DNA from: Buxus sempervirens
Lineage: Eukaryota; Streptophyta; Magnoliopsida; Buxales; Buxaceae
Length of the DNA stretch: 64,000 bases
Reading direction: 5' to 3'
Assembly: GCA_947561395.2 (NCBI GenBank)
Contig: OX387190.1
Span: forward strand, 10,596,858 to 10,660,857
Shown one piece after another: positions 10,122-50,905 of the stretch; positions within the stretch are counted from its first letter, which is position 1, and each line of letters begins with the position of its first letter. Under the pieces are notes generated by a model. That model was not told where the DNA came from, ran no database searches, and saw only the letters and a list, made by a program, of their open reading frames with translations. The translations under genes and the position numbers were made by a program.

Positions 10122-10122
10122 C

Positions 10123-17974: not shown

Positions 17975-20751
17975 TGTAGACACCCCAAAATTGCACGATT
18001 TTTGATAAATCTTGAAGGAGAGATATTTTATTGGAATTTTCAATTCTTTGCATTGGGTTTGAGGTACTTAACCCATTTGAATCCAAAGCCGTAAAGGAAA
18101 AGGCCCGAATTCAATCTTTTGTGCAAAGTCAAACTTTTTCCGGTTGAATTTTGTTGACTTTTGACCCAAGAAAATGAAATATTTTTTAAAGCCAGATTTC
18201 AAGATAATTTTTCCCGGTAATCAGGTTTTTAGCCATGTTATTGCATAAAAGAATTTTTTGAGATTTTAAATCTTGGCGAATACCTTGGTTTTAACATATT
18301 GAACCTTTTTTTCCAGACCTGAAAAATCGGAATTTTGCCTAGAACTGGAAAGTTGACTTTTTATTCACTGGGAATTTGGGTCTGGAACTATTTTTAATGG
18401 ATTCAAATGGGGGGTGTTTGCTTATTTACATGTAATATCTTAAGTAAATGGAGATTAAAAAATACGAGAACATTTACTCAAACGATATTACATGTAAATA
18501 AGTATTGCCTGTGTTAAAATTTGGAAAAAAGGCTTTTTTCCTTGTATCCGGCAACTCAGGCCGGATACAAGTACATTTCTTTGGATCCGGTGACAAATAC
18601 CGGATACAAGCAGTACTTAGTGTATCCGGTATTGTATACCAGATACCTTAAGGACCTTGTGTATCCAGCCTGATATACCGGATACGCAAGTTTTGCTCAA
18701 AATTAGGGTTTTCCGAGAGAAATCACTTGTTACCATTATGTCCCTCATTAAATGAGGGGAAATCTCGGAAATAACCTTAGGGTTAAGGTTGGGGGGTTCT
18801 AGACATTAAGTTGTGTCTACCAATGACCTTAGCCTTTGCCTATAAATAGGAGACTCCTCCTTAAGCAAATGGGACTCAACTCTTGTTTTGAATTCTCGCA
18901 AAGAAGAACTCCAGGAGAAGAAGAAAACCGCTGCGGAATCGCCTCCAGAACTCAGGTAAGCCTCAACTTTTCTTTTTATTTTCTGTCTTTACATTCCTAG
19001 ATCTAGATCTCTTCTTCTACCTTTCTGTAGAATAAAGCCTTGTTTGTATGTGTGGAAATCCTTCCCCGGCTCAAAGTATCTCAAGACTCCCCTAGCCGTA
19101 AAACGTGAAGGCGGATCTAGGAGAAACGAGACTGGGGATTGACCCTAGTGCTAGAACCCATGTAGCATAAGGCCTTTTTGATTGATTGTAAACCGTTCCA
19201 TATTCAAAGTACCCTTGATTATTTCGAAGATCCGTGTTTAACGGGGAGAGAGAACAGAGGGAAACGATAATGGAACGGAACCCTAGGCTATGCTAGAACC
19301 TATTTTGTTGAATCTATATGCATGTGTATTAATATTGTTTGGTTTTTCACTCTTGCACACATATTACACTTTTTTTGGTGAATAGGCTCACATTTGGGGA
19401 TTTATTACATTCATTGTGATAAATCTCCAATAAATGGCCTCAATCAAATTCTGGAGTGTTTTAAAATATTTTTCAAAGGTTTTGGATTCATCTCACACGG
19501 ATCACACACATTTTATCAATTTTCGGATTTGGTTTTCTTCAAAAGTGGCTTAGCTTGACAGCACCTGTACCCTTACTTCGGACGCCCATAACTTCATCAT
19601 CCGGATGAATTTTGGGGCGATTCCAGAACCATGGGAAAGGTGAGGCTGTCTAGTTTATGTCCACCAAATTTCATAAAGTTCCATCAAACGGATTTTTGAC
19701 ACCTCTCTGTCGAAGTTAAGTGGACAGTTCAGGTTCAAGTACAGAACTTGTCACTTCGACGGACCGCCATGTGTTCGTTTTAAGTCCGATTCGAGTGATT
19801 TTTATTTCTGAGTACTCCTTCATGAGTCTATTTTCAAATTCAGTTGGTTTCATAATTTTTGGATTCCATTTGAATTATTGGTAGCCGATTTACTCAGAAC
19901 TGTTCATTTGTACTTTTCTGGGTAAATCTGTGATCTTCGGGGCCTGTTCGGGTGACCACCCAAGGCACATCCGAAGGGATTTTTGTATGAGGCTAGTTTC
20001 TATGGAAAGATGGCCATACAAACTTCAATCACACCAAAGTTCGTAGACTTCTATGTAGTGGATTTTTCTAGACAATTCTCCAAAGTTGCCCACTTATCAC
20101 TTTTAAAAATCCCCAGCAGCAATTTCAAAGGAGCATAACTCCTAGGATTTTTATCGAAATGAAGTGAAATTTTGTATGAGACTCTTATTTATCCTAATCT
20201 TTCAAATGGATTTGGTTTGGTTCAATTTAGAATTGGATTTGAATGATTTTAAGGCAAATGGCATACTTTTTACCAAACTTCCCGGATTTGATTTAACTTG
20301 GTTTTGAGCAACTTGTGCTTTGATTTCCACCTTTTTAATGTTCCAGAAATGATATTGACATAAAAGGAGAACCCGAAATTTATTTGGGTTCTCATGTGAA
20401 GGTATCATACATTTGACCTTTTTCAAGGTTTCTCATGATTTTTAGCAAGCTTTCTTACTTTGTTTTTTGCATGAACATACACTTGGCAACCACTTCGTGT
20501 GGATGAATGGGGGTGCCTAACACCTTCCCCCGTTCATAATCTAATCCCCTTACCCATCTCTGGATTTGATTTTCAAGTAGGGTTATTTTTATCCTAGAAT
20601 TTGTCTTTTGGTTATCTTTGCTTATTTTTGAACTCTTTGGTGTCCATTCTCACCCCAAAATCATGAATGGTGGCGACTCTCCATTTTTTGCGTTGAGCCC
20701 ATGTGTTGACGGAGGGAAGATCATTCCGGTGATTTTTTCCCATGTCTCACA
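17975..20751 (+). mobile_element. solo LTR (2.8 kb) inserted in Copia fossil 1, target duplication GGAGG
   Basis: Begins TGTAGACACCCCAAAATTGC and ends CATGTCTCACA. It is flanked exactly by GGAGG at 17970-17974 and 20752-20756, and Copia coding sequence stops and resumes at these points. A TATA box (TATAAATA) is at 18841-18848, followed by a leader with GAAGAAGAAAACC. Near the 3' end it has GGGTGCCTAACACC at about 20510 and TGGCGACT at 20671-20678. Size and motifs fit Tat/Ogre-type LTRs. No internal region is present, so this is a solo LTR left by recombination. Confidence 0.85.
18541..18690. repeat. array of palindromes upstream of the LTR TATA box
   Basis: CTTGTATCCGGC (18541-18552) and GCCGGATACAAG (18560-18571) form perfect 12-bp arms. 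Three further GTATCCGG...CCGGATAC-type units follow to about 18690. The array lies about 150 bp upstream of the TATA box at 18841. Confidence 0.9.
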
Positions 20752-23700
20752 GGAGGTAAGTGAGTTATAGTCCAAGTTTTATTATCTTCCAAGGCTTTAA
20801 TCTCATCAACCATGGCATCACACCACTGAGTATGTTGAATGGCTTGTCTAAAAGATGTTGGTTCTTTTTGGGAAGAAATGGACAGTGTAAATGCTTTATG
20901 AGCACAAGAAAGATTAGAATATGATAAAAAAGAAGATATTGGATATTGAGTACCTGAGATAGAACCTTTACTCAAAGAATTAGATGATGAAGTGGCCTTT
21001 GCAGCATTAGCTAAGTTACAATGGTAATCTTCAAGATATGATGGATTTTTGTGAACTCTAGTGGATTTTCTAATTTTAGGCTGTGGATTTACTGAATTTT
21101 GCGGAGAAACATTTGGAACTGGTATGTGAGTTGGAACTGGTATGTGTGTTGGAACTATATTATTTGTGGGTTCATTCATGGAGTTGGGAATAATATCTTG
21201 AGCAATTTGATTTGTAGAAGATGTGAATGTATCAATAGGAATAAGATCATATGTTTGAGGAACTGGTATGACTACTGACTGAGTGGAAAGATCATGCCCA
21301 ATTTTGAATGGAAAAACAGATTCTCGAAAAATGACATCTCTAGATAAGAAGATGGCATTTGTTTCTAAATCATAGAGTTTGTATCCCTTAGTGCCATATT
21401 GATATCCAAGAAAAACACAGGGATGAGCTCTAGGTGCAAATTTAGAGCGATTATGAGATAAGGTTGATGCAAAACAGAGGCAACCAAATACTCTAAGATG
21501 AGAATAATTTGGTGATTTTGAGAATAAGACCTCATATGGTGTTTTATTGGATAGTAGAGGAGAGAGTGTTCTATTTATTAAGTACGTTGCTGTGAGAACA
21601 CATTCACTCCAGAATACAAGGGGTAAATTTGCATGGAATCTAAGAGATCTTGCCACATTTAAGAGATGTTGGTGTTTACGCTCAACTACACCATTTTGTT
21701 GAGGTGTAGCAACACATGTTTGTTGATGTAAGACTCCTTTAGAAGAATAAAATTCTGGCATATCAAACTCAGCCCCTCTATCAGTCCTTATAGTTTTGAT
21801 ATGAATATCAAATTGTGTCTCTATGAGTTTAAAAAATGACTGAACTAGAGAGCGAGTGTCAGATTTATTTTTCATTAGATATACCCAAGTGCAACGTGAG
21901 TGATCATCCACAATTGTAAGAAAATATCTAAAACCAGTGATTGACTCAACATTGAGGGGACCCCAAATGTCACAATGTATCAAGTCAAAAATTTTATTTC
22001 TGATGGAATGACTAGTATTGAATGGCAATCTTTTTATGTTTTGCCAATGGACAGATATTACAATTGAAATTTGAAGGAGTATGTATATCAGGCAACAACT
22101 TTTGTAGTGTTTGAATCTTATTAAAAGAGGGATGGCCTAGCCTAAAATGCCAAAGATCAAAGGAAGAAAGATTTACAGCAGAAAAAACACTAGAATCTAT
22201 AATAGATGCTTGCAACAAATATAACCCAGCTACTTGTTTAGCCACTCCAATCGTCTTCCATGAGTGTAGGTCTTGTATGAAACAAGAATGAGAAAGAAAC
22301 AGAAAACAACAAGAATTTTCTGTGAGCCTTTTGACTGAGATGAGATTAAAAGAAAAAGATGGAACATACAGAACATTATGAAGAACTAATGAGTCTAATA
22401 GTTGTATAGTTCCAACATGTGTGACGGGGACACATGTTCCATTTGGTAACTTTACTAAAGTGTTTATAGTAGAGGTAATTGTAGTGAAATGTGAAATAGA
22501 ACTGACCATATGATCAGTAGCACCACTATCAATTATCCAGGAATTTGATTGCTTAGAAACAAAATCAGGTGAATTAATCATACCTGATAAACTCAAAGAG
22601 TTTGAAGCAGAAGATAAGTTGCTCATAGCATTCATTGCTGTAGGCTAAGTTGTTTGTGACGAAGGCTGTAGGAAGGAAAGAAGTTGCTGACATTGTTCTT
22701 TGGTGAAAGGGAATTGAGGAGCTGAATCTGAAGCCATGGATGCTTCATCAAAACCAGTGGAAGATAATGAAACTTGATGTACAGAAGATGTTTTGGTTCT
22801 TGGATTCTTAATTCTCTTACAAAAGAAATTGTAGCTAGTGTCATCAGCACTCCAGTTGCTGAAGAAGTTTGGAGGAATCTGAAAACAAGAATCACTCAAG
22901 GTAATGGTCCTAGCCTATTTCAACTCAAGAAAGATCTCGCTTCATTAGTTCAAGATCAATCTTCAGAAAGTTCCTATTACACGAAATTGAAAGCTATATG
23001 GGATGAGTTTTCCACTGTGAAACCAATTCCCAGTTGTTCTTGTAATCCGGGTTGTTCTTGTGGAGCTTTAAAGACTATAATTGATCAACATCAAAAAGAA
23101 TATGTTGTTCAATTTTTGATGGGTCTAAATGACTCTTTTACACACATTCGTGGCCAAATTCTATTAATGGATCCAATGCCATTCATTGACAAAGTTTTAT
23201 CCCTTACTTTACAAGAAGAAAAGCAATGAAAGGTGGTGGGATCATCTTTGATGACTGAAACTGCTGCTTTGTTCAGCAAGAATGTTAATGTTCCTGGCAC
23301 AATGCTCAAGAATTATTAGAAGCAACGTTCTAAGCCAGTTTGTACTCATTGTGGTCTCACTGGGCATACAGTTGATAGATGCTACAAGGTACATTGATCA
23401 ATTATAGTCTTAAAAGCTCTACAAGAACAGCCCGGATTACAAGAACAACTAGAATTGGTTTCACAGTGGAAAACTCATCCCATATAGCTTTCAATTTCGT
23501 GTAATAGGAACTTACTGAAGATTGATCTTGAACTAATGAAGTGAGATCTTTCTTGAGTTGAAATAGGCTAGGTCCATTACCTTGAGTGAATCTTGTTTTC
23601 AGATTCCTCCAAACTTCTTTAGCAACAGGAGTGCTGATGACACTAGCTACAATTTCTTTTGTAAGAGAATTAAGAATCCATGAAAGGACCATGTTATTGC

Positions 23701-26715: not shown

Positions 26716-26719
26716 ATTA

Positions 26720-29222: not shown

Positions 29223-31645
29223 TGTTAGCACCTGATTTTTGCACCCCCAAAATAAAGAAAAATGAAAAGACAAACTAAAAGTCAAACCCTGAGGGGGTCA
29301 AAAATTGACTTTTTGATTCAAGTAAATTTGGCCATCAAACTTCAGCTCATTGAAAAGAGCGTTTCGACACGATTCCAACGCAACTGAATTTGCTGGAATT
29401 GGAGTCCAGGTGAGAAAGATATGAGCTGGTCAAACTTTTGGGGAGCAAAAAGTTGACTTTTTGCTCGACCCCAATTCAACTGCCAAACTTGACCCCAGTG
29501 GACAGGTGGTTCCGAGCCGGTTCCAACAACACTAAATTTGCTGAAATCGGACACCGGATGAAGAAGTTATGAGCAGTTGAAGTTTCAGAAAAACTGCCCA
29601 TGTGGCAAAAAAGGCAGCAAAAATGGAATAAACCAATAAAGTAAATAAGATAAATGTGTTTAATAATATTTTAATAAAGAGAATCTCGCTTTTTAATAAA
29701 ATAATCGAAAAATCGAATAAGAATCTTGCAAAAAACCAAATTGAATAAAGGTTTGAAATCCAAACATTTTAAAAACGTGCTGGACCGTATTTGATTTACG
29801 GGCAGGGCATGCCCGTATTTGAAATACGGGCAAGATTCTGGAAGGAAACACGCGTCGCTGTACGGCGGGACACGCATCCCGTACGGCCGAATCTGCGATA
29901 ATTGCAAATATTCGTTTTTCGCCCGTACTTGAATTACGGGCAAGGCACGCCCGTACTTGAATTACGGGCAAGGCATGCCCGTACTTCAAATACGGGCACA
30001 AAAATTTTGCCTATAAATAGAGAGGCCACCCCCCTCATTTGAACAAGCCCTCTCCTCTCTGGCCTACCCCCTCTCCCTCCTGGTGCTCTCCACGACCAAA
30101 TGCTGCCCAACCACCACTACTCCTAACCTAAAATCTTTTTCATACCCAAATTACCCTTATGTTATAAGACTACCCCAAAACCATGCCCAAGTATCCTGTT
30201 TACCCCTCATTGATCAAAGTCATTTAACCAAGTCTAACCAAACCCTTCCCAATTCATCCCAACAAACCTTGAAGGACGCGGAAGCGCTGCCGGCTTTCTC
30301 GGAGAATCCAGACATCACAAATCTAGGCTTAATAGTGTGGTAATGATCTTAATAACTCTTTTCTTTAAATATACATGTGAATTCCTTCATTTAAGTGATT
30401 TTGAAATCCTTTTTTAATACCTGATTACTAATCAACTCGTTTTGTTTTGATGGAATCCTCTACACAAATGAGCCATATTCCATGAAATAAAGGATGGATT
30501 CAAAGAACACTAAAAATCTAATATTTTGATTAATGGTGTTTGCAAATACAAAAAAAAAGGGAGTTTGTTCTCTTTAAACTTTCCCCTGTAAACTCCCTTT
30601 TTCATGCTGGAATTTGGTTACTAATAACCAAGAGGGGGACCAGTTGCTTTAAGAAGAACAGAAGACGGAAGAAATGGTTTTATAAGCCAAATGAAAGAAA
30701 TGTGGAACCTGGAAGGAAAGCAGAAGCCCTGTGGATGTTACCAGAAGACCCAGAAAAGCCACGGAACTGATCCAGGTTGAAATCGGCGGCAAACATGTGA
30801 AACAAGTCGCGTCCGTAAACTCAGGCCGGTCCAGCCTGGACCGTGTTTGATTCACGGACAAGGGGGACCGGAATCCATTCACGGGCAAGCGAGACCGTAA
30901 AGAAAATACGGGCAGATGTAAAAATAATGTAAAAAGTGTAATTTCTTGGTTCGGTTGGGCCTGACCCGGCCTAAGCCGGCTTGAACCACTCCCTTAAACC
31001 ACTTGGGCTATATTAAGCCCATTTTTGGACTTTGGGCCTAGATAGGCCCATCAAGATCCCTTTGGCCCACTTGTGGGGCCCACTTTTGACTGGTCCATAC
31101 CAGGCCTGTTTTCAATAAACAGGCCCAAGACCATTTGACTCTTGGCGAATGGGCCAAATCCAAGCCCGCTAAGCCCATGGAATTTGTAAATAAATAAGAT
31201 AACCAAATGGGTTACCCAATAACCCAACTGGGCCCAAAGTCCAACCATGGCAGCCCACGGGTCTTCCAACGGGACCCGGGTCCGACCCACTCCACTTAAA
31301 TCAACGAAAAGATAAAATCAAATAAAAGGGACCCACACCTCCAAAGGGCCCCGCCAGACCCAATAAGCAGCATGCTGGTCTAGGAAGGGTGAACTTGACT
31401 CAAAAAACCAGGGAGACCCGAGGGACCCGTCAAACCAACGGGGCGGACCGGGGTGTCTTTAGGACTTCCCCGGATCGTAACCGAGGACTTAGCTAGAATT
31501 CTGAAAAGCCGCAGACCAGACTTAGACCCGATTAGGGCAAAACCGTGTCTGTCTGTACTCTCAGGCAGTGGCGACTTTGAATGTCCCGAGGCACGCACCA
31601 AAGGTGCGCCCGGTGTGCGATCTAGGCCAGGTTTAGGTGCGCACA
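29223..31645 (+). mobile_element. solo LTR (2.4 kb), target duplication GTGAC
   Basis: Starts TGTTAGCACCTGATTTTTGC and ends GGTGCGCACA. The flanks are GTGAC at 29218-29222 and 31646-31650. A TATA box (TATAAATA) is at 30012-30019. GTGGCGACT occurs near 31568, as in the other large LTRs. No internal region. Its start and palindrome core match the minus-oriented LTR at 48375-50905, so the two are one family. Confidence 0.9.
29785..29997. repeat. palindrome array ending just upstream of the TATA box
   Basis: A 21-base palindrome with perfect 10-bp arms (GCCCGTATTT-G-AAATACGGGC) lies at 29811-29831. Three units at 28-bp spacing follow at 29921-29941, 29949-29969 and 29977-29997, built on GCCCGTA...TACGGGC. 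The last unit ends 14 bases before TATAAATA. A looser group with the same CCGT/ACGG theme is at 30815-30905 in the downstream part. Confidence 0.95.
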
Positions 31646-31867: not shown

Positions 31868-32375
31868 TGTAAGCACCTCATTTTTTCACCCCTCAGAAAA
31901 CCAGAAATGAAAACCCTAAAAGACACGTCAAACCCTAGGGAACAGAAATTGATTTTCTGATCAAACTTGAATTAACTACCATACCTTGTCCTAATGGATA
32001 GAAAATCGCAACACGATTCCAACGCAATTGAGTTTGCTAGAATCTAAGTCCAGATAAAGAAGATATGAGTAGAACAACCTTAAAGGTAAAACTGTAAATA
32101 AATGCAGAAATCATGTCCACGTAGTAAATGTGCAAGTCACATTTGCTAAGTGGCAAATTAAAGGACAAAATCAGAATAAGACAAAACACAAAAGCAAAAT
32201 ATCTTAAATAAAATAATATTATTTCATATAATATCTCATTTTAATTGATTAATAAATTAATAAAATAAAAAATTCGGATTCTCTCATTTATGAGAGAAAT
32301 CCCACTCATTGCAGCCAAATAGGAGAGAGAAAGTAAGAATCTAAAAAGATTTAAAAATAACCAAAATTTAATTTC

Positions 32376-32401
32376 GGTTATACATAAAAACATGTATAAC
32401 C
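32376..32401. repeat. palindrome with 10-bp arms, upstream of the LTR promoter
   Basis: GGTTATACAT (32376-32385) and ATGTATAACC (32392-32401) are exact inverted copies. A second palindrome on the same GGTTAT core lies closer to the TATA box: AGCATAACC (33361-33369) with GGTTATGCT (33384-33392). Confidence 0.95.
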
Positions 32402-32414
32402 AAAATATAATTTC

Positions 32415-36684: not shown

Positions 36685-38640
36685 GATGTGGTCAAATACA
36701 TGCTTACGCATCCAACAGTAAGCGGCCGGCTCGGTAAGTAGACATTAGCTTTGATTGAATTTGATTTTAAGTATGTACCACTAAAAGCTGTCAAAGGACA
36801 AGCTTTGGCTGATTTCTTGGCCGATCACCCATCCGGTATCCAGGAAAATGAACTAGATATCTCGGTTTTTCACGCCGGTTTCTTTTATTCGGAGTTTCAG
36901 CCATAGACTTCGAAGTTTGATGGGTCAAAAACAGAATCGGCTTCCGAGATCAACATCATTATAATTTCGCCAAGAGGAGAAAGACATGAATATGCATTCC
37001 AACTTAAAGAACAATCAACAAATAATCAAGCAGAGTTTGAGGCTTTGATTATTGGCATGGAAATCTTATGGGAAATGGGTGTTCACACCATTACCATAAT
37101 GGGAGATTCTCAGCTAGTTCTGAAACAAATGGAGGGACATTATAGTTGCAATAGCGAGATGTTAATACCTTTACTAAAAAAGGCAAGGTTTCTGGCCGAA
37201 CAATTCAATCGGGTGGAATTTGAATATAGGCCAAGGAACAAAAATTGTGAAGCTAATGAGCTTGCTCAAATTGCATCAAGCCTCAGGCTTTACAGTTCGT
37301 CTCGAACGGTAACAGTGCAATCTTTACCTTCCACTGGAAAGAGACAGTTTTTGGTAGATTCCCATGCATGTTTTAATCAAACAATACAGCTAGATTGGAG
37401 GAAAGAGATGTGGGAATATCTCCGAGATCCTACTAGCAAGGTGAATAGGGCAGTTAAAAGAAGAGCGGGTATTTACTTCATTTTTGGTGATGAACTATAC
37501 AGAAAGGGTTTCGATGATATATCTCTTCGATGTTTGATTCACTCAGAGGCGATGTTAGTCATGGCTGAAATACATGAAAGAATATGCAGCGCACATCAAG
37601 TTGGTATCAAAATGCGATGGATGTTACGCCGGCATGGTTACTATTGGCTGACCATTTTGAAAGACTGCCAGGCATTTGCAGCCGGTTGTCAAGAATGTCA
37701 AAAACATGGACCAGTTCAGAGGGTGCCATCAATCAATTTACAATTAATAGTCAAGCCATGGCCTTTTCGAGGATGGGCAATGGATTTGATAGGAAAGGTA
37801 TATCCTCCCTCGTCCGGGTTACATAATTTTATCATAGTTGCTACCGATTATTTCACTAAATGGGTTGAGGCTAAACCTTTAAAAAAGGTGGAATAATCGG
37901 ATGTAGTTGAATTTATCAAAGAACAAATCATTCATAGTTATGGCATCGCGAAAACCATTACAACGGATTTCGGCACTGTTTTCATTGGTGAAGCAGTAAA
38001 TGAGTTTGCCAAACAATATGGCATAAGAATGATTCGATCAACTCCTTATTATGCTCAGGCAAATGGCCAAGCAGAGGCAACTAATAAGGTATTGAAAAAT
38101 ATTTTGAGGAAGATGATAGAAGACAAGCCATGAAATTGGTGCAAGCTTTTATCAGAAGCCTTATGGGCATACCAAACTTCTTATAAGACCTCTATTGGAA
38201 CAAGTCCATTTGCCTTAACTTTCGGTCATGAGGCAATTATTCCAATAGAAATCACAGTGAAGTCATTAAAAGTGGCTATTCAGAATAATTTTACACCCAA
38301 AGAATATTTGGAAGCCATGTTGGCAGAACTAGAGGACTTGGAGGAAGTCAGGAAAATGATTCTAAGTAGATAATTGGCACTTAAAGAAAGGGTTGCCAGA
38401 TCGTACAACCGACAGGTCAAACACAAGTCTTTTGCTCAGGGTGATTTAGTATGGAAGACACTTCTTCCAATTGGCAAAAAAGACTTTCCATATGGTAAGT
38501 GGTCGCCCACATGGGAAGGACTATTACGAATTAGTAAGGTAATGCCGGGGGGGGGGGGGGGGGGGGGGGCATATTACATTCAATCACTTGAGAGAAGAAA
38601 AATTCATTAACGACCAGTTTTTAAAGCGGCATTATCCTAC
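36685..38640 (+). mobile_element. Tat-lineage Ty3/Gypsy fossil: RNase H, second RNase H and integrase
   Basis: Plus-strand pol, in order: the RT/RNase H end (VKYMLTHPTVSGRLGK, KAVKGQALADFLADHP); a second RNase H (FDGSKTESASEI near 36920, NNQAEFEALIIGMEI near 37025, MGDSQLVLKQMEGHY near 37100); the integrase zinc finger (H-H then C-C, HQVG...GCQECQ, 37590-37700); and the integrase core (RGWAMDLIGKV, FIIVATDYFTKWVEAK, TTDFGTVF, YYAQANGQAEATNKVLK). The extra RNase H is the mark of the Tat lineage. The 5' LTR, gag and protease are absent here. Broken by several changes. The 3' LTR of matching orientation is at 51963-53117. Confidence 0.9.
38547..38569. repeat. poly-G run, 23 bases
   Basis: An uninterrupted run of 23 G, within the conserved Gly-Gly region near the end of Gypsy integrase. 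Preceded by AATGCC and followed by CATATT. Confidence 0.98.
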
Positions 38641-39412: not shown

Positions 39413-40450
39413 TGTGCGCATGGGTCGCACGGGTAAAAATGGGAATTTGGAGTTGCCACTGCCTGATGGGGTGCAGGCAGACACCTGGGTGCCTATGTTT
39501 GTCTATTAAGGCTCGGTCTACGGCTAGAGATTCTAAGCAAGTTCTCGGTTGCGGTCTGGGGAAGTCCGTGGACACCCCAGTCCACCCCGTCGGATGACGG
39601 GTCCCATAGGTTTTCCTGGTTCTGAGTCAACTCGGTATCTCACTCACACGATTCCTAATCCAGTATTCAATTCGATTAAGTCTGGTGGGACCGCCAAAGT
39701 GGTGTGGGTCCCTTTACTTGTTTTTATCTTTTTTATTATTCAGTGAAGTGAGTCTGATTAGGTGGGCCCCGTTGGAAGGCCCACGGATCCCTTGGTGGGC
39801 CAAGTGTGGCTCACATGTTCCCTTGGTGGGCCTTAGTCTAAACCTGAGAGGCCCTTTGGGCTTTGGTTAAATGAATTGATTTATTTGAAATTCAGGTTTA
39901 AGGTTAAATGATTTTCATGCCAAGTGGGCCGAGATTACTTTGTGGGCCCACGAGTGAACCACACAGATGGTTGCCAAGTGACTTGAGTTATCTTTGATTA
40001 ATCTTTGCCAAAATGGGTCAGGCTTTGGGCTTGGGGCCCTTTACCTAGGCTTGGGCTTGAAAGCCCAAGACTTCCTGAGTTAAGGTTTGAAAACCCTAAT
40101 CTTATTTGGTTCAATGGGCTTAGTGGGCCCGAGAGGCCCTATCCATGGTCTCGGCCAAACCATACCTAAATCTAAGCAACATGCTTCCCAAGGGGGCTTT
40201 GGTAGGCCTCCAATGGTGTGGCCCACTCATTTAGTGAGATTATCTTGATTTAGCAAAATGTAATTTTGTTGGGCTTGGTGGGCCCCGTTGGAAGGCCCAC
40301 TGGAATCAAATTGGACCGGGTTGGTCCATGACCCGTCTTGGGTCTCCGGTTGACCCGGAAACCCCCCTGGTTCATCCGGATTGATAAAAAAAAGCAAGAA
40401 AACAGCACAAGGTCACAAAAGTAACAAAGAAAGGCAATCTGGCAGTGTAG

Positions 40451-40538
40451 CCGACCTGAAGTTCCAGCTACAAACAAAAACCCTTATGGTCGGATACAAA
40501 AGGAACCCTGCTGATCCGACCTGAGTTGTCGGATCAGC
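40451..40538. repeat. palindromes in the downstream part of the same LTR
   Basis: GCTGATCCGAC (40510-40520) and GTCGGATCAGC (40528-40538) form perfect 11-bp arms. GCCGACCTG and GGTCGGATAC lie just before. The ATCCGAC core is the same as in the upstream array at 42150-42360 of this LTR. Confidence 0.93.
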
Positions 40539-42149
40539 ATAGAAAGTGGCATTTTCAAATTTTTACCAGTGGGCTTCGGTTCTTGGGTCTTCTAGGATGT
40601 TCCAGTAATTGTGTGGGCCCACAGTGGTTCAGGAAGATGGGGAAGACCCCATTTCAATATTTTTTGAGATTTTTACAACAAAGCAAGGAGGGGAGATGCA
40701 TGGGAGGTTGCCTCTTCCCCTTTTGGACCATGTGCAATGACTAAACAGGGGCCAAGGGGTCCCTGTTTTGGTTTACAATTCCATACGAAACAGTAAGCGT
40801 AAAAGAAAATGATACAAACTAAGCAAAAGGGGTGCTCAAAACCCAATCCATACTATGACTCAAGGCACTAAACCATACGCCTCCTCATGCCTTATGCAAG
40901 AGGAAAGATGTTAATACAAGTAAATAAACATAGCATGCTTCTAAAGTGGGGAGTGTGTCATCACATGGTGCTTATGCAATCAAAGAGGCAAGCCATGTGT
41001 ATAAAAAAAAAAAAAAGGTGCATACTGTTGAGAAGTGGAACAGCCATTGTAAAGAGGAGAAAGGCATGCTTAACATGACAGAAATAATGCAAAATGAAGT
41101 GGAGGGGTAGCTTGCATGTGCATGGTTGGTGGGTTGGACTTGGGAAGTGTATAACACTTTGGTAAACATGCAATATAATAGAAGAAAGGGCAAGAGGGCC
41201 TGCTGCCATCCCTGGCAGCAGCTCATGCAAGCTAAAACATGGGGGCTACGGGTAAGGGGAGCATGCTTGGTAGTTCCAAAACAGTAGCACAACAGTAAAA
41301 GGGAATGGGGAGCAGGGCCGTGGAGCTATAGGTACACACATATTGGCATGAAGATGCCCACACACAATCTCATGCTAGATTACTTTAAACCATGCAAAAT
41401 GGAGGGCATACCAACATCAAACCGGCAGCATACAAGAAGCATACATCATGAAAACACCAAGGATCTGGGAAGGAAAGCACACACAAAAAGAATACAAAAG
41501 AAGGGATGATGGGGATTACGCAGGGGTACAAAAGATGAAAAAACCAAAAGGGAACATGCTCCCCCATTAGAAACGAAGAGGGAACAACACAATATTTACG
41601 TAAAACAGTAGCCATGAACACTTTAGACCAAGCTTGGGACCCCTCATTCTCTCCTTAATCCGACCAAACCTTCATCTTTACCTTCCAAGAGTAATCACTC
41701 TTAGAGAACCATGAAAAGAGAGTAATGAGAGGAGAAGGATGTGCGCACATACTCATAACAGCATCCTCATAACATGATTAACATCCTTCATGCTTCAAAT
41801 GAGTCAATATTCATATATGTTAAAGAAAATAACCTAAGGAAGCTCATCTTGGGTCTCAAACCTTTGGGGAATGGGTGTGAAGCCCCATTTGGAGCCGAAA
41901 CGGGTGTTGGACAGCACCTCTCCAACAACAGCAACCTTTCCTCCTTCTCTTGCTTGGGTGAGAATGGAGAAGAAAAGAGGAGGGTAGGGGTAAGATGGTC
42001 AAGCAAGGAAGTGTTTAGGTTTGGGGAGCAAGGAGGGGCTCAGGGGAAGGGCCTTCGTGCCTGGAACAATGGAGGGAAGAGGTGGAAGCAAGCCAAGAAG
42101 AGCCAACCCTCGAAATGGGGCTGCTGTTGCCTTTTTATAGATAAATTTT

Positions 42150-42360
42150 TGTATACGGCATTTAATGTCGGATACACTACACTTCCTTTGTATCCGACAT
42201 AAAATATCGGATACAAACACAATTATTTCAAAAATTTAATTTTCTGCGCATATCTGTCAGCGACTCTGCGCGAATCTCGCGGGTAAATCTCTTGTATTCG
42301 GAAATATATGTCGGATATGAAGAAAAGCATGTGTATCCGACATATATGGTCGGATAAAAG
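42150..42360. repeat. palindrome array upstream of the LTR TATA box
   Basis: GTATCCGA (42190-42197) with TCGGATAC (42207-42214) is an exact pair. Similar units lie at about 42150-42177, 42293-42320 and 42332-42355. All use the TCCGAC/GTCGGA core. On the minus strand the array sits just upstream of the TATA box. Confidence 0.93.
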
Positions 42361-42914
42361 CACGATATTTACAGATTTGCCCTTCGACTTGACCGATTTG
42401 ACACTTTTGGATATCCGCAGATTGCCCTCTGCGAATTTTGGTTTAGTCCCTGAGATATTTAGCAAGTTTTTTTTTATTTTTAAAGATTGCCCCCCGAGAT
42501 ATTTTGTTGCGTTTGCGGCCACGTGTGCAGTTTTCGGTTTTGTTGCTTGGTAGCTTCAATTGCTCATAACTTCTTCATCCGAACTCCGATTTGAGCAAAC
42601 TCAATTGCGTTAGAACCGTATCGGAGTCCTATATCCATTGGGATAGGATTAAGTAGTTGATTTGGGGTTTAGCAGAAAGTCAACTTTCGGCTCCCCTTCA
42701 AGTTTGACCGGCCTGCCGATCCTTCATTCGGGCTCCGATTCCAGCAAACTCAGTTGCGTTGGAACCGTGGATTCTCTATCCACTGAGATAAAGCAAGGTG
42801 GTCAATTATCACTTGATCAAAAATTCAACTTTTGTCCCCTCAGGGTTTGACTTTCAGCTAGGGTTTTCATTTTCAGCATTTCCGGGGGTGCAAAAATGAG
42901 ATGCTTACAATATG

Positions 42915-43163
42915 CATTTAAGAAAGTTGAAGTCGACCAACCGGCTAACGACCAACCAGCTAACGAAAGAAAATTAAACATGCCACCTATATGGCACAAA
43001 TCTAGTTAATACCGATGACATGGTATGGTGTTACGAAAAGTTTTTTTAGAAAAGGTAAAAACTTACCTTTCAAATAGTGACTTAAACCTAGCATAGTCAC
43101 TCATGGCCTGTTCCCATATGCACGTCGCCCTCGCCCGCTATGCTTCCATCTCATCCTCGTCCA
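42915..43163. mobile_element. Tat element, spacer before the antisense PMD gene A
   Basis: Short AT-rich stretch continuing the Tat sequence after the solo LTR insertion. It contains a duplicated CGACCAACC-GCTAACGA motif near 42937-42967. No gene. Confidence 0.45.
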
Positions 43164-45855
43164 TCAGCCGGTACAGCAACCATGAACAACTGACATGATC
43201 AACCTCCTTTGAGCCCGAATAGACTCTCTGATATTATCCTCCATGGTCTGCAACAGCGCCAATTCAGAAGAGTTGTTCGAGGAAGGGGCAGACTTTGCCA
43301 AAGAAGCTCTCTTATAAGCAATGTCACGTAAGGTTTCCTCCAGATTGGTTATTTGACGTCGATATCTGAAAGCAACATACACTTCCTTCTTTAGCTCAGA
43401 TTGTCTAGCCAACACATAGTGAAGAGTGTTGACCGCTTCTCTCAACCTTGGAATGGCACTATAAAAATCAAACATGGAAAACAGATGTTCCAGTTCCAAG
43501 GGATACCTGTCCGACCCCACTCCGATGGCACGCCCCAATAGAATCTGTATCTCGTTCACTTCAATGTTCGAAAGATGCTCGGGTTGGCGAAGAACAAGAG
43601 AGCAAAGCCGTTCTCGACCATCAAAATTTGAAAGAAACCCGGGGTGAAGCCCATCTCCAAACTCAGAAAATCGAAGGAGACGCTTTGCTTCCCTAAACCA
43701 TTCCCGAACAAAGCCAAAGCAGTATCAGGAAGATTACGAAACTCCGTCGTTTTGGATAAATGGTCTTCAGGCATAGGATTTTCAGTTGGAGACGATAGGT
43801 CGTCAAAAAGAGCAGCCGAAGGAATATCAGAAGGGAGAGTAGAGGGACTAGCTTCATCAAAATTACAACTAAACACCGGAGGAGTAGGGTTTTCTTGTTC
43901 TGGCAAAGACATACTGGATGGAGAACTAGTAAGGACAGCAGCAGGAATGTCAGCCATGGGAGGATGAACTGAAGAAATCGCAAAATCAAATGGACTAGGA
44001 GGGGCTACCAGAGGAGAAGACGGACCACTACCCGTGGAGGGAACGCAAGTTTCCCATTGGGGACGGAATAGGTTTATATCTTCTCCCCCGCTTGACAAAT
44101 CATCAGCAATTTCAATATGCTCCCCAGGACGCCGAACCTGGAATCTCAGGCTTGAACGAGTGACATAAGTTCGGCTTCCGGAGGGATTGCTAGCCTCCAC
44201 AGTCTTCTTCTTCTTCAACGGTTCACCGGAAGATGGTTTAGTCTTGACAGCAGTCGGTTTCCTTTTGAATTCAGCGCTTTATTCGATCAGCTACCACTCT
44301 CATCACTTGAAATCCATATTCAATGTGAGAATAAGGTAAGGAAGATAAAATCAAATCCGAAGTTATAGATAACATTACCGAGATGTGAAAACTGAGTTTC
44401 AAGAGACGAAGGAATATTTTCTATGCTTCGGGCATCGAAAGAAGAAGGGTGAAATAGTTCGACATAAAATTCCATGTCATGGGAGATTAGTTTTGAGTAA
44501 AACTGATCCCACGACAACCGGAATGAAGGCTCGGCATCAGCAACCTGGAGTGCGGCAACTGCGCGGAATCTGTTGACAAGGTTTTGAAACTGAGAAGTAA
44601 CAGCAACAGAATACAAATTGCTAATGGTTGGCTTGGATGTTCCAGGAGGGTCATTGATAGAAGGAAAGTTAACAATGGGAATGCCCTGACCATAACCCAG
44701 CTGCCGACTGACGAAATTCGGCAAATAGACTTCAACTCCTTCTCGCCGAGAAACAGGAGGAGTAGCACGGTTATATAGGCCAAAAGGGACTTCCCGGGCC
44801 ATGAGAAGACTTGTAGCAGTGTAGCGGAGATGATCGGGAGATGCATGAGTGGACTCATAAAAAGGGGTGCCGTTGTTTTCATCAAAAGAGAAACGGTAAA
44901 ATGGTGGAGGAGGTTGTTCTTGCATTCTAGTAAAGAAAAGCTCAAAAACAGTTCTGAAAGAAAGTTGCAGGGATATCGCCAAAATCCAAGACCGCCCAGC
45001 ATAATGGAGTTCGGGACGTGGTGAATTTTGAGGCTCGCAAAAGACACCGGGAAAGTATTCATAGAACCAAAATTGAAGAAACCAGAACGGACCGCCAGTA
45101 TGTGCAAATCGATCAATGGAAAGGTTATATAAACCCCGGTAAACATGGCTGAGGAAAAAAGGGGCTAGAGCAAGACGACGATCTTGGGCAAGAGCAACCG
45201 CAATACCAGAAAACTCTTTGACCATTTGGCCGAAAGCACCACAGAGTATGAATTGACATATGAACATTAGAAGGAAGGAGCAATTCTCCTACATGGTGGG
45301 CGGAGTATTAGGATCCTCAATCCGTTCGGCACAATAAAAAGTACCGAAAGCAGAACTGGCATGAGTAGTGTCAAAAACCGTGGATGAGAATTAAGACAAA
45401 TGGTGATCTATCTCTTCACCAAGAACATGGAGTCCAGTGATAGAGCAAACATCGAGGATGGTAGGAGTCATGAGACCATGATAGGAGGAGAAAGTATTGG
45501 AACCCCGACACCAAAAAAGCGTGGCTACCCCAAGAAGAATGGGATTGATGGGGATATAGAAAGTGGAGTAAAGAATTAACTCGGCTATGCCGAGACTGAT
45601 CCAACGTTCCATGAAAAATGGCTGCAACCTGGCAACCCATTGGTTCCACTCTACGATATGTCTAGGCCAAGATCGAGGAAGGTAAGGAAAAGCAAGATTA
45701 CCCTAGTTCGAGGGTGTTTCTTCCAAAATCAAATGGGAAGAAGGGGACAGTACATCCGGAACCGGAGTATCAACCAGAGGAGCATAAGGATTGAGAACAG
45801 TGCCTTGGGTACATTCAACAAAGAGGTTCATTTCTTTGAAGTTCTCTTTAGCCAT
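43164..45855 (-). pseudogene. plant-mobile-domain (PMD) gene A, carried antisense in the Tat element
   Basis: Captured host-type gene on the strand opposite to pol. The N-terminus starts MAKENFKEMNLFVECTQGT at 45855. The PMD (aminotransferase-like) follows: FWCRGSNTFSSYHGLMTPTI and DVCSITGLHVLGEE (45530-45400), then LAPFFLSHVYRGLYNLSIDR and GPFWFLQFWFYEYFP (45170-45050), and VYLPNFVSRQLGYGQGIP (about 44730-44680). A Ser/Pro-rich linker spans 44218-43600. The C-terminus (43559-43164) is charged and predicted by eye to be coiled coil. PMD proteins are known as silencing/meristem factors (MAIN/MAIL1 group) and as cargo of mobile elements. The architecture matches PMD gene B. It is treated as part of the fossil; an intact spliced product is not claimed. 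Confidence 0.8.
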
Positions 45856-46222
45856 GATCAATGGAAAACAGTTTAGGAAAAAGCAGTTCAGAAAGAAGCA
45901 GTTCAGGAAGAAGGGAAAACGAAGGTAACGAAGGAGAAAGGACTGCTCGGGAAGGAGGGGAAAATTTGAAATCATTACCGTATTGGGAAGGGTTAACCTA
46001 ATCAATATAGCGGTTATCTGCCCGAGGTAATTGATACGGCGGCTCGACTCTGTGCCATTGATGCATTTCAGATTGACATCAGATGAGCAAAAAGAATGGC
46101 CGATGTAGAAAAGATATGTTGAAATAATAATTTTCGCCGTAAAGAAAGGCTAATATTACTGGCCGTGGCGGTTATTTTGATGGACGTAAGAAAGTTATAA
46201 AATCTTGCAAAGTTAAGAGATT
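45856..46222. mobile_element. spacer between the two PMD genes
   Basis: A short stretch upstream of PMD gene A on the minus strand, so it may hold that gene's own promoter. No firm TATA box was seen. Confidence 0.4.
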
Positions 46223-48374
46223 TCATTCAAATGAAATATTTACAAAGTCTGAATACAATTGGTCAAAAGACTGCTGGACGGACCGTCTCGCGTCCAATAA
46301 CCCGGCTTGACGCAAGGCCAAGCTACGATAAGACTTTGCTTCAACCTCTAAATCACGAGCCGCTTCCTCACATTGGCGCGTTTTTTCCGCCACAGTTCCT
46401 TCATCAATAAGGTTGCTGAAGATAACTTCTTCACGCTGACGTAAAAGGTCAGACCTCTCATTTTGCAGCATCTCAATCTGACGGTCAATATCTGCAATAC
46501 GATCGTCAAACATCCTCAAACGTTGGATCTTCTCAGCATACTGCTGCTCATAGGTATCCCGGTCGGTCTTCAGATTTTTGATAAAATGATACCAGGCAGG
46601 TAAAGAGTGAAATTTATCGATTATCTCTGCTACCTCGGCTGAGCAACGGTCAAAAAACAGTTTTTAAAGTATAAAAGCGGGAAGACTGTGAGAGCACCAT
46701 CTTTACTGAAGAAGGAACTGCGGAATTATTTTGAAGTTCCATTGCCAATTCTATGACATGGTCAAGAGCAGCATCTGAGACTCCAATTATCCCTGGACTT
46801 AGCAGACTAAGAATCTCGGACCGAACAGAATCAAGAGATGACAGAGCATAAGAAGTAATGGACAGGAATTCAGACCTAATGGTGTTCAACAGGTTATCCA
46901 GATACCTAAAAGAATCACCAGTAGATGAAAAAGGTATTACATCGCCCAATACAGATACCGGAGGGATGGTTGAGTGACATCTTCCATTTTGTCTTCATCA
47001 GTCAATGTTCTCACTGGTCCAGTACCTCCTTCAACCCTAGCCATAGAATTTTCCGAGAGGATATCTGTCTTGGTGGGAGCAACAAAAGTGGCCACTCCAA
47101 TAGCCGGGGAAGCAGGTAGAGAGTCTCCTCGCTCCAATTCAACCTCTACAGATTCAAATCCAAAAGGAATGACCGGAGAGGAAGTTTCGTCTAGAGAGCC
47201 ACTGGAGGGGGGAATTAATTCAATATCATCAGAAGACGATGTAGAGGTATCACCATCAAAGCTACCAGGTATATCCTTAACCAAATCAGACGATTGTGGA
47301 GGAATGGCGGGGCCGGCCTTGCTTCATGAAGGAAAAGAAACAACAGGAGCAGTGCTAAGGGGAAAAACGTCCAAGACTGAGGGAGAAAATCGCACCATAA
47401 AAGGTTCCACAGCACCGGTAGAAGGAATAGCCAAACTCGAAGAACTTTCTCCCTGAAAGAAAGCGGAAATTAAGACATTGAAGGATAAAAGGAAAGGAAG
47501 AAATAGAAGATTCACCTCTTCTAATCTGGGACGCTTCGAAGGAGGATTGGGGAGTTGGCGACAGAGTGTCGCTAGCAGAACATCATCCTCAGAGTCTACT
47601 ACTTTGTCCTTATTTTTAGATGACGAAGCAGTAACTGGAGCAATTAGTAACGGTGGAAGAGAAGAAGAAGCTTTCGATTTATTTGCAAGCAAAAGAAATT
47701 ACAATAAGTGACAGGATTCAAAAAAAAGAAAAAAAAAAGAAAAAAGAAAACACACCTTTCTTGTTTGGTGTAAGAAGAGGTTGCAGTAGATCCAACCGTT
47801 GGAGATATTCATTTTTAGAATAAAGGCAAATCTCCTGCCAAGTGGAATCCCACCATATTGAGAAGTCGGAGTGAGTATTGGAAATGGAAGGAAGAAAAGG
47901 TAGACGAAACACAACAGCTGCCTCAAGATACCGAGCTTCAATATCAGCAGCGTCCAAAAGAAAGATGCTTTCCCGATCAAGGGAAGTTTTGACCGAAAAT
48001 AGTCGGTCGAGATCAAAGTTAGGTAGCCCCTGAGTACAGTGAAACTGCGTGCTAACACAATTCGGCAGGTAAACCTCATATCCTAGTTTTTTATTTATGG
48101 CTGTCACAGAATAATTTAAATTTTGAGTCAATAGAAAGTGACCTAGATTAGATGTTGTTTGTTAGTAATTGGATCTATCGTAGAAAGAAAGCAGGTGAAT
48201 CCAAAGAAACCAAAGAAACTCGGAAAGGAGGGTCAGGGTGATGGTGGAGACAAAAGAAGTGAAAACACTCCAGGACAGAGCAATCGACCAGGGCACCCTC
48301 CAGACATGAGTGACCAACGAATTCAAAGGGTGATGGAGGATGAGTAGGAATGAAAAACTGATTTGGAAAGTAAC
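46223..48374 (-). pseudogene. PMD gene B, C-terminal half, antisense in the Tat element
   Basis: Minus-strand segments: YEVYLPNCVSTQFHCTQGLP near 48070-48010, equivalent to VYLPNFVSRQ in gene A; a Ser/acidic linker (47692-46937) with a Lys/Arg stretch PPSKRPRLEE; and a coiled-coil end (RIADIDRQIEMLQNERSDLL, 46510-46430). An intron-like gap with GTGAATC donor and TTTCAG acceptor separates 47519 from 47450. Intron remnants fit a genomic gene captured antisense to the retroelement transcript. A solo LTR at 48375 separates this half from the N-terminal half. Confidence 0.75.
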
Positions 48375-50905
48375 TGTGCGCACCTAAATCTACCTAGATC
48401 GCACACGGGGCGCACGTGGGTTCGTGTGTGCCTTGGGACTTTCGGAGTCGCCACTGCCTGAGAGGTGCAGGCAGAATCGAGAATTGCATATCTGGGTCTA
48501 AGTCTGGTCTGCGGCTTATTAGAGATCTAGCTAAGTCCTCGGTTACGTTCGGGGAAGTCCGAAGACGTCCTGGCCCGCCCCGTCGGTTTGACGGGTCCCT
48601 TGGGTCTCCCTGGTTTTTAGTCAATTTCACCCTTTCTAGACCAGCATGTGTCTTTTTGGGTCTGGCGGGGTCCTCTGGAGGTGTGGGCCCCTTTTATTTC
48701 ATTTTTTTTATTTTTTTACTTAAGTCATGTGGGTCAGATACATGCCTCGTTGGAAGGCCTGTGGGTTGCCAAGTTTGGGCTTTGGCCCAGTAGGGTTATT
48801 GGGCAACCCTATTTTGGTTGGTTTGGGTTATTTAAGCAATTATACATTTTAATGACTTAGTGGGCTTGGATTTGGCCCATTAGCAATTATACAAGGGCCT
48901 TGGGCCCGTTTGTTGAAAACGGGCCTGGTTTGGGCCGGTCAGAGGTGGGCCACATAGGTCTTGGTGGGCCCATTTAGGCCCACGGTCCACAAGTGGGATA
49001 AGAATAGCCCAAGTAGCTCATTGGGTCGGGTCAAGCCTATTTGGGTCAGAGCAAATCCAACCGGGTTCACAAATCACATTTTTTAAGTTATTTTGAAACT
49101 GCCCGCATTTACTATACGGTCTGGCCTAGCCCGTAAATGTAATACGGTTCAGGTCAGATCGTATAGCAAATACGGGCATGCCTGACCGTATAGTAAATAC
49201 GGGCATCCGCTCGATTTTGCATTTTTTACAACAGTTCTCATGGGAGCCGAATTGTTTGTTTGCTCCTTCACTTGCCAGCCACAGTTGGAGATTTACGGCA
49301 TCTTCACAATGATGTATTTCCTTCCCTTGGCCTCCATGTCTTCCTTTCTTCTTTTTATATTTTCCCAAAGAACAAGGTTCTCTTTTCATCATCCATACTC
49401 GTCACCAAGAAGGGAAAGAGGGAGAGAGCGCAGGGTACAAAAAACTTTTGAGGAGGACAAACTCCTTCTTGTTGAATGAGTAGAACATGTTGATTAAATC
49501 ATAATGAAAATTATGTTAGCTTAAATGCCATTTTGTACTTTGTAAATCAACCTCCCTCCCTTTGGTATGGAAATTTCCATCTCATATGAGGTCTCTCATG
49601 ACGTGCCGAAGAAAACAAATAGGTTAGCAGAAGTGTAGTCAAATGAGAAGAGTTAAAACAATTATTCAAACAAGGAGATTTTCATATATGTTAAACAGAA
49701 AGTTACCAGAAGTGTTACCACACTACTACCTTCTTGTCTTGGTGTGTTGTGGTTCTCCGAGAGATTTTGGCAGCGCTTCCGCACTCCCGTTGATTTCCCA
49801 AGATGGGCTTGAAAAAGGGGCTCTCTTACTCCGGGTTGAGAGAGATAAAAGGTGGGGATAGTGGGTAGATTTTGATAGTGCTTCCGCGCTCTTGTTGACT
49901 TCCCGAAATGGGTTTGAAAAAGGGGTTCCTTGCTTTTGGGTTAAACAGGGCTTCAAGTAGGTGGAAAGGGTATAACCTAGGGGTATTTTAGGTATTTGGG
50001 GTTTGGTTTTGAAAGTGGCAGAGCCTGGGCAGGGCTTGGACGAGCAGAGGGCAGAGAAGGAGAGTGGGGGAGCCAAGAAGGAGAGGGGGATCAAAGAAAG
50101 GGATGGGGAGACTAGCCTTGCTCTCTTCTTTTCAAAGCATCCCCCTCCCCTTTTATAGGGGAGGTTGTTTGATGGGCAAGAAAGACTAATTTTTAATTAT
50201 TTTTACTAAAAGTGATTTTTTTTTTATTTTCTACTTATGACTTATTACTTTTTACTTAATGGTTAAGAAAGACTCTTTTGTGAATATTTTTACTTAGGGG
50301 TCAAGAAAGACCCTTTTCATTATTATTTTTGTTTTCTTAAGGGTTAAGAAAGGGGGGCATCCATGTGGCGCAGTTTGCCACGTGGACAGTTTATTTTTGA
50401 CCTAGGGCTGCTCATAACTCTTTCATTTGAGCACCGATTCTGACAAACTCAGTGGCGTTGGAATCAGGTTGAGATTCTCTACCCACTGAGCTAGAGTTTA
50501 GCAGCAAATTCGGGTTTTTTAGCAGAAGTGCTGAGTCGCGCTCCGGAGCCAATTTTGCTCATATCTCCTTATCCGGGACTCCGATTCCAGCAAACTCAGT
50601 TGCGTTGGAATCGTGTTGAGATGCTCTTTCTATTGGTATAGATTTGAGCAGCTGATACGGGGTTTAGCAGAAAGTCGATTTCTGCTTTTCTCATATTTGA
50701 CCAGTCCATAACTTCTTCATCCGGATTCCGATTTATGCAAACTTAGTGGCGTTAGAACCGTATCGGAATCCTATTTCCAATGGCATGAAGTATGGTGGTC
50801 AATTTGTACCCGATCAAAAAGTCAACTTTTTGACCCTCTCAGGGTTTACTTTTAGTTTGACTTTTATTTTCTTCATTTTAGGGGTGCAAAAATCAGGTGC
50901 TAACA
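48375..50905 (-). mobile_element. solo LTR (2.5 kb), reverse, inserted in PMD gene B, target duplication GTAAC
   Basis: The minus strand begins TGTTAGCACCTGATTTTTGC at 50905 and ends GATTTAGGTGCGCACA at 48375. The flanks are GTAAC at 48370-48374 and 50906-50910. The minus-strand TATA box (CCCTATAAAA) is near 50151-50160. GTCGCCACTGCC near 48448 is the reverse of GTGGCGACT. Same family as 29223-31645. Upstream of the TATA box, instead of palindromes, it has tandem TTAAGAAAGACYCTTTT units (50260-50360). No internal part. Confidence 0.9.
49101..49205. repeat. palindromic units in the downstream part of the LTR
   Basis: Repeated units on the core CCCGTA/TACGGG: GCCCGCATTTACTATACGG, GCCCGTAAATGTAATACGG, ATCGTATAGCAAATACGGGC and ACCGTATAGTAAATACGGGC. 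The core is the same as in the sister LTR at 29223-31645. Confidence 0.88.

Follow-up and report, generated by a model that had tools for sequence, protein, structure and literature searches.

CCG-N11-CGG Palindrome Arrays in Long Terminal Repeats of Buxus sempervirens: Candidate Operators for an Element-Encoded PMD Protein

Solo LTRs and Their Palindrome Arrays

The window analyzed here is a stretch of 64,000 nucleotides from Buxus sempervirens (assembly GCA_947561395.2, contig OX387190.1, forward-strand positions 10,596,858 to 10,660,857), part of contig C12; genome-wide counts were taken in the 676.5-Mb genome. It holds five long terminal repeats (LTRs), up to 4.0 kb in length, whose borders were placed by perfect 5-bp target duplications and all of which look like solo LTRs. 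Within them lie clusters of palindromes whose recurrent unit is a dyad of the form CCG-N11-CGG, found in a zone upstream of the TATA box, in a second zone downstream of it, or in both; comparable arrays precede genes for DUF7745/PMD (plant mobile domain) proteins, and the relation between these arrays and the PMD genes is the subject of this report.

The LTR at 17975-20751 (plus strand; family T, TGTAGACACC...CACA) is flanked on both sides by the target duplication GGAGG, and copies about 92-93% identical to it occur at two other loci (L001 and L004). Its exact dyads lie upstream of TATA only, in an array of the TATCCGG type with a 39-bp period (18541-18686; CCG-N11-CGG at 18548 and 18587), where two decayed dyads can be recognized by eye after 18587; the T-family arrays elsewhere have four dyads (L001, L002, L004) or three (L003). 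The LTR at 29223-31645 (W29223, plus strand; target duplication GTGAC) belongs to family A (TGTTAGCACC...GCGCACA), of which further members are known in this genome. Its upstream array (29785-29997) contains five exact dyads, at 29785, 29813, 29923, 29951, and 29979, with 28-bp steps inside each group, and is followed by TATAAATA at 30012; the last palindrome ends 14 bp before this motif, just as an earlier note on the window had reported. Its downstream array (30813-30911; dyads at 30813, 30841, 30868, and 30895, in steps of 27-28 bp) has a CCGTA-like core and is partly decayed, with 2, 6, 2, and 3 of 10 positions symmetric.

The LTR at 31868-35897 (W31868, plus strand; target duplication GTGTG) represents family E with an ACCGAA core. 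Its upstream palindrome AAAAATAGCATAACCGAA...TTTGGTTATGCTATTTTT (33355-33398) adjoins TATATAAG at 33402 and contains no exact CCG-N11-CGG; a second palindrome on the upstream side occupies 32364-32413, and the two exact dyads, at 34642 and 34702, are both part of the downstream palindromes (34632-34725). The minus-strand LTR at 39413-42909 (target duplication ATATG) belongs to family B with a TATCCGAC core; here the upstream palindromes (42148-42360) include exact dyads at 42194 and 42337 next to a TATA near 42139, and the downstream palindrome TGCTGATCCGAC-N7-GTCGGATCAGCA (40509-40539) has a dyad at 40516. The fifth LTR (W50905; 48375-50905, minus strand, target duplication GTTAC) also starts with TGTTAGCACC and has CCGTA dyads downstream, at 49103, 49131, and 49186; it has none upstream of its TATA, and thus provides a counter-example to paired zones inside the window itself.

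The six inverted repeats listed in the earlier note, at 18541, 29811, 32376, 34634, 40510, and 42190, are present letter for letter and exceed chance. Palindromes scoring at least 12 number two in 17975-20200, one in 29223-31645, three in 31868-35897, three in 39413-42909, and none in 48370-50905, against means of 0.025, 0, 0, 0, and 0 in 40 dinucleotide shuffles of each stretch; one such palindrome is present in each of the non-LTR stretches 1-17000 and 52000-64000, where 10 shuffles gave 0.1 and 0. Equally borne out are the cores that the note had seen shared between zones: CCGTA in 29223-31645, with its five exact dyads upstream of TATA and four downstream, ACCGAA in 31868-35897, and TCCGAC in 39413-42909.

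A Common Spacing Rule

The LTR start motif TGTNAGCAYCTNATTTTTNCACCCC occurs at 1897 + 1959 genomic sites. The survey comprised 44 LTRs: 40 loci drawn from the 100 TGTNAGCAYCTNATTTTTNCACCCC places listed first, all on C1, and four LTRs of the window; seven of the 44 had no clear end and were trimmed to 3000 bases. Half of the fetched loci (20 of 40) are solo LTRs by end motif and perfect 5-bp duplication, with LTR lengths of 2.3-3.7 kb. The surveyed LTRs again carry palindromes in two zones, with cores that differ, and the spacing between the triplets follows one rule: when CCG-Nk-CGG was counted for k = 0 to 40, N11 was observed 238 times against 12.8 expected from 30 shuffles, the neighboring spacings k = 10 and k = 12 were found 9 and 15 times, and the second-highest count (101) was obtained at k = 39, one 28-bp step beyond N11. 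The array period is 28 bp in family A (CCGTA) and 39 bp in family B (TATCCGRC; TATCCG type). The inverse arrangements CGG-N11-CCG (123 vs. 13 expected) and CGG-N22-CCG (40 vs. 13) are enriched as well; an excess was also noted for other spacings, among them CGG-N3-CCG (68 vs. 12.6 expected) and CGG-N6-CCG (52 vs. 12.5).

The rule extends to the whole genome, where CCG-N11-CGG occurs 163,369 times and CCG-N12-CGG 40,613 times, an excess of about 120,000. With longer half-sites, TATCCG-N{4,18}-CGGATA is found 42,420 times against 279 for the reversed pattern; 89 of 90 different sites among the matches listed have the N11 spacing, and steps of 39 and 78 bp prevail. AACCG-N11-CGGTT is found 19,195 times against 1,691 for its reversed version. 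Since groups A, B, D, and T all show CCG and N11, as do the promoters of the PMD gene types X and Y described below, the possibility that cores vary freely was ruled out; the fast-changing cores of the earlier note are family-specific in their flanks, yet CCG and its N11 spacing remain constant. Two further recurrences cross family borders: families B and T, whose LTRs end differently, have the TATCCG core in common, and, as judged by eye, the spacer ACTCAG is shared by dyads with differing arms that lie downstream in A (W29223, L005) and in B and upstream in T.

Some LTRs carry other repeats. Six of a related group (L006, L009, L026, L029, L038, L040) have no symmetric CCG dyads and instead contain 11-bp GCGC repeats of the GCGCCCACCTG type, many of them downstream, with palindromes near TATA in L009, L026, L038, and L040; these repeats are direct, and 11 bp is again the spacing unit. 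L042 has neither symmetric CCG dyads nor the GCGC repeat; its upstream zone (LTR positions ~760-1090) shows tandem repeats with TATAATGCATA...CTAGGACATCCACTTTCC and no dyads. In W50905 and L023 a different upstream repeat, TCTTTCTTAACC(C/A)(C/T)TAAGT or near it, occupies LTR positions ~520-750, and may represent another operator type.

Covariation of the Two Arms

The arms were compared in 265 dyads from LTR families A, A2, AD, B, D, and E and from X, Y, and T sites, 229 of them unique, with family A contributing 134 of the unique set. Their flanks are complementary at a level of 0.54 in register, against 0.20-0.30 when slid by one or two bases. At offsets -2, -1, +1, and +2 the two arms are complementary in 193, 135, 169, and 162 of the 229 dyads through several pair types, a level reached in none of 500 shuffles; at the inner offset +4 there is no covariation (109 vs. 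118 in shuffled dyads). Because covariation spans offsets -2 to +2 and does not include +4, the half-site can be delimited as approximately NNNNN-CCG-NN.

The mismatches in these dyads bear on the suggestion of the earlier note that the palindromes might act as RNA hairpins. G.T mismatches (149) are no commoner than A.C mismatches (194), both upstream (55 vs. 78) and downstream (58 vs. 86), which favors protein-DNA sites over RNA hairpins; the X promoters taken alone show the opposite trend, with 14 G.T and 8 A.C.

Promoter Position and the Two Zones

A TATA box was called in 41 of the 44 LTRs, and L010, L030, and L039, where none was called, were left out of the zone comparison. In 30 of these 41 LTRs, all with an exact upstream dyad, the last such dyad ends 15-17 bp before TATA in 24 cases (families A, AD, B, and D) and lies 45-117 bp away in the remaining six. 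The corresponding gap is 24 bp (L049, L053) or 52 bp (L052) in X-type PMD genes, and 170 and 209 bp in two T LTRs.

Symmetric dyads occur upstream in 29 and downstream in 26 of the 41 LTRs: in both zones in 21, upstream only in eight, downstream only in five (W50905, L023, L032, L027, W31868), and in neither in seven. The palindromes and the two zones proposed in the earlier note recur in other family copies, but their pairing is not universal, since W50905 has downstream dyads and none upstream, and the T LTR at 17975 has upstream dyads only; the 13 of 41 LTRs with dyads in a single zone imply that whole zones have been lost or exchanged as well, in the manner of modules. Half-site identity between the zones is 0.596 within an LTR, 0.592 between different LTRs of one family, and 0.201 across families. 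Upstream and downstream half-sites match in families A, B, and AD; in L041, an AACCG array upstream is combined with a B-like array downstream. The proposed co-variation of the two zones therefore holds within families, but with so few independent families, one of them mismatched, the exact family-level permutation for the match gives p = 0.17 (four families). Zones agree as a rule and yet are also exchanged. A test on 7-mers shared between zones (nominal p 5e-05) was not relied on; its clustering isolated all but two LTRs, and L037 holds a second array set.

PMD Genes and Element Identity

The motif TTGGCGACTCTGCTGGGGAC stands behind the LTR end at 160 + 141 places; in the Ogre lineage the primer binding site is antisense to tRNA-Arg, according to passages of PMC9289625. 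Two elements with family A LTRs were followed inward. In L045, the primer binding site at position 16 is followed by frames of a first open reading frame (ORF1) from 1274, with an internal stop (two frames), and by gag at 4641; in L051, the primer binding site is at 3074 and ORF1 starts at 4384, extending for 472 residues to the end of the locus, which stops before gag. In both elements this ORF1, which precedes gag in L045 and should precede it in L051, is assigned to DUF7745/PMD by Pfam. The A-type elements can be regarded as Ogre-like on account of this ORF1, since the relevant section of PMC6317226 gives PMD as present in 57% of Ogre elements.

A first look at the genome yielded 5,751 DUF7745 candidates, of which 118 were scored. 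Two further PMD types, X and Y, are ~72-78% identical to each other in their aligned parts and 33% identical to ORF1; their cores are CCGTA (X) and AACCGYAC (Y). All seven PMD genes read in X/Y cassettes are preceded by CCG-N11-CGG dyads: four lie directly before gene 2 of L049, three before the gene in L050, and 3, 4, 4, and 1 in the promoters of L052 to L055; in the companion gene of L049, two dyads are located ~1.2 kb before the ATG. On C1-C3, an exact Y dyad is positioned 423-426 bp upstream of at least eight of 20 X/Y-type DUF7745 hits, with 0.03 expected for all 34 hits, and of none of 14 ORF1-type hits among the matches listed (100 of 464 pattern sites). That the exact Y pattern misses part of the X/Y hits is expected, the core of X genes being a different one.

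The TATCCG arrays on C1 repeat a layout across ~20 kb, whose middle array was guessed to be a PMD promoter; this guess was not recorded beforehand. A PMD codon signature occurs at 1136 + 1152 genomic sites, four of which fall inside the range of the TATCCG sites listed. All four sites testable among these matches lie on the minus strand, and in each case the middle array begins 421-422 bp upstream; each of the four elements shows the same core at four other places as well, whose distances from the signature are about -15, -11, +4.5 to +5.0, and +5.2 to +6.3 kb. By analogy, the outermost arrays would be LTR arrays and the array near +4.6 kb a second PMD promoter, as in L049; the four elements are probably copies of one family. 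T palindromes are weakly enriched near PMD-signature sites (7 of 38 within 12 kb vs. 3.0 by circular shift, p = 0.047); the T palindrome of L004 was dropped as a neighbor of a PMD gene, as by eye the T LTR appears inserted into that gene. The PMD reading frames end in a charged, helix-like stretch (by eye) that could mediate dimerization; a search of solved structures with PMD proteins found no homolog (no hits apart from one keratin hit at E = 5).

The window itself contains decayed antisense PMD genes (43556-51784, minus strand), with a Pfam PMD match at 44320-45288 and PMD-like frames recognized by eye at 50918-51784, interrupted by the LTR at 48375. Decayed Ty3/gypsy pol frames lie on the plus strand at 36907-38610; Pfam identifies RNase H-like and H2C2 integrase domains at 36907-37896, and 37897-38610 looks integrase-like by eye. 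Taken together, by eye and Pfam, 36907-38610 (plus) and 43100-51800 (minus) resemble the decayed remains of a Tat-type element, in which pol reads in the plus sense and is followed by antisense PMD genes, disrupted by two later solo-LTR insertions. Elsewhere in the window, a hAT-family C-terminal dimerization domain is encoded at 1889-2818 (plus strand), in a frame that also holds a long acidic stretch, and a 292-bp inverted repeat (22797-23088 and 23394-23684) is 96% identical between arms ~300 bp apart.

Comparison with Known Systems

VANDALs are DNA transposons. In Arabidopsis, the VANDAL-encoded protein VANC binds a short motif arrayed in non-coding DNA of the family that encodes it; both the motif and the specificity of the protein vary by family, and sets of motifs change together through tandem repeat formation, as described in excerpts of PMC5735166. 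Family-specific motif arrays in non-coding element DNA are found in Buxus as well; in contrast, the VANDAL motif (YAGTATTAY) is one-sided and repeated in the same orientation, and its binding by VANC is demonstrated (PMC5735166, same excerpts), whereas the Buxus arrays consist of two-sided dyads with fixed spacing at the promoters of LTR retrotransposons, and the candidate binder is a protein that Pfam assigns to DUF7745/PMD.

The Arabidopsis PMD proteins MAIN and MAIL1, which are of transposon origin, offer a second parallel: the genes that require them carry a specific promoter motif (DOWN; sections of PMC7156037, PMC9899485). There, in contrast, the targets are host genes, the sections concerned describe no dyad, and recognition of the motif by PMD is left as a possibility. 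The DOWN motif example CATGCAGTTT has three 9/10 matches in half-site-like stretches of two family D upstream arrays (L041 at LTR position 402; L025 at 595 and 647) and none in seven other sequences checked, a weak, post hoc likeness.

With Ogre/Tat elements, the Buxus elements share long LTRs, given as typical of Ogre in passages of PMC9289625, and an additional PMD-type open reading frame, here between primer binding site and gag; the passages of PMC6317226 on this reading frame assign it no function, and the words "palindrom" and "inverted repeat" are absent from the text of that paper. Retand elements resemble the Buxus case in their antisense genes between pol and the 3' LTR; these encode the domain TRP28, and a DNA-binding role in the regulation of the element was suggested for them, with no target site proposed in the relevant parts of PMC11963269, whereas in Buxus PMD genes stand beside concrete candidate sites. 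PMC6911290 was set aside as a precedent, as the portion available deals with a different subject, insertion into palindromes. Arrays of the present kind were not found described in the open-licence literature that was searched.

Candidate Function of the Arrays

The constant CCG...CGG at N11, the covarying flanks, the fixed array period, and the fixed distance to TATA agree with the suggestion of the earlier note that the palindromes are sites for a dimeric regulator. On the strength of sequence evidence, the arrays are somewhat better than evenly likely to be operators for a dimeric, sequence-specific DNA-binding protein, with the element's own PMD protein as the likeliest binder. Each operator would comprise two half-sites of ~8-10 bp (NNNNN-CCG-NN) in which CCG and the spacing stay constant, and the bases around CCG are family-specific, with both arms changing together. 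The arrays stand directly before TATA at the promoter of the LTR, in many cases with a second set further down the LTR, and they precede PMD/DUF7745 genes of the same or related elements. The PMD protein would be made from the LTR promoter, as ORF1 upstream of gag in the sampled A-type elements, or from separate PMD genes with array promoters of their own, and would feed back on these arrays, thereby regulating or protecting the family that encodes it. Paired half-sites 14 bp apart, as a dimer would read them, set in arrays next to TATA at the promoters of LTRs and PMD genes and bearing family-specific flanks, are the trace expected of an autoregulated, element-encoded factor. The sites, their grammar and placement, the covariation of their arms, and their co-location with PMD genes are features of the DNA itself; it is this co-location, together with the literature on distant relatives, that points to PMD as the probable binder. 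As to the sign of the effect, activation or anti-silencing would match VANC (excerpts of PMC5735166) and the genes whose expression is lost in main/mail1 mutants (sections of PMC7156037), and a copy-number brake is equally possible.

Several observations weigh against this interpretation. The reversed pattern GGC-N11-GCC is also frequent in the genome (126,325; N12: 105,655), although it contains no CpG and is therefore an uneven control. Symmetric CCG dyads are missing from both zones in 7 of the 41 LTRs with a TATA call. Copies within a family share descent, so that independent support has to be counted in families (A, B/T, D/Y, E, X) and not in copies. Nor is the core a plain function of PMD relatedness: ORF1 and X, with proteins 33% identical, have the CCGTA core in common, and X and Y, at ~72-78% identity, have different cores. 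No PMD was found by tblastn in the interiors of L046 and L047, which have another LTR end type and whose LTR core is not established; L048 has a PMD ORF1 but no palindromic dyad in the part of its LTR that was read; and near the 5' ends of the decayed antisense PMD genes of the window there is no symmetric CCG-N11-CGG dyad.

The promoter position and the site grammar would suit any dimeric factor, and the arrays could be operators of a host transcription factor that were recruited by the elements, with PMD genes merely sharing promoters of the same origin; the mosaic zones, and the TATCCG core that B and T share despite their different LTR ends, look as if sites had spread between elements. 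We regard this alternative as unlikely, though it deserves serious attention; a single conserved factor explains poorly both the several family-specific flanks and the fact that in each of the four TATCCG elements the five arrays share a single core. We also know of no plant factor with CCG-N11-CGG sites, although no search aimed at one was made, and this counts against it.

Two further explanations appear far less probable. As RNA hairpins, the palindromes would function in the transcript (packaging, dimerization, stability, or as a source of small RNA), a proposal that could draw on several near-perfect stems of 12-15 bp with 7-nt loops, on the downstream zone, which follows TATA and should be present in the RNA, and on the mismatch trend in the X promoters; since overall and downstream mismatches show no surplus of G.T, and the N11 spacing is kept whether inner bases pair or not, hairpins were rejected as the main explanation and are very unlikely, all the more as CCG is constant and arrays also stand upstream of the TATA of separate PMD genes. 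Slightly more improbable still are neutral tandem repeats, produced by replication slippage and conversion with palindromy as a by-product or fragile-site effect: the fixed periods and variable copy number are minisatellite-like, but slippage would preserve neither the complementarity of arms that both change, nor CCG-N11-CGG across families, nor the last unit at 15-17 bp from TATA.

Implications for Plant LTR Retrotransposons

The operator interpretation can be carried beyond single elements, tentatively and with chances just short of even: a whole class of plant LTR retrotransposons may possess a self-encoded operator system, with dimeric PMD regulators, CCG-N11-CGG arrays at every element promoter (of LTRs and of PMD genes), and a half-site specificity that diverges between families. 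Such a system would be the retrotransposon counterpart of VANC and VANDAL, and a possible origin of the MAIN/MAIL1 motif system of the host. The PMD open reading frame, present in over half of the Ogre elements by the figures given in PMC6317226, gains a concrete candidate for its DNA target. If this interpretation is correct, LTR retrotransposons, which account for the bulk of many plant genomes, would run transcription switches of their own with family-specific codes; the motif of the domesticated MAIN and MAIL1 would likely have originated there, and an arms race among families, or with the host, would become readable as changes of the code.

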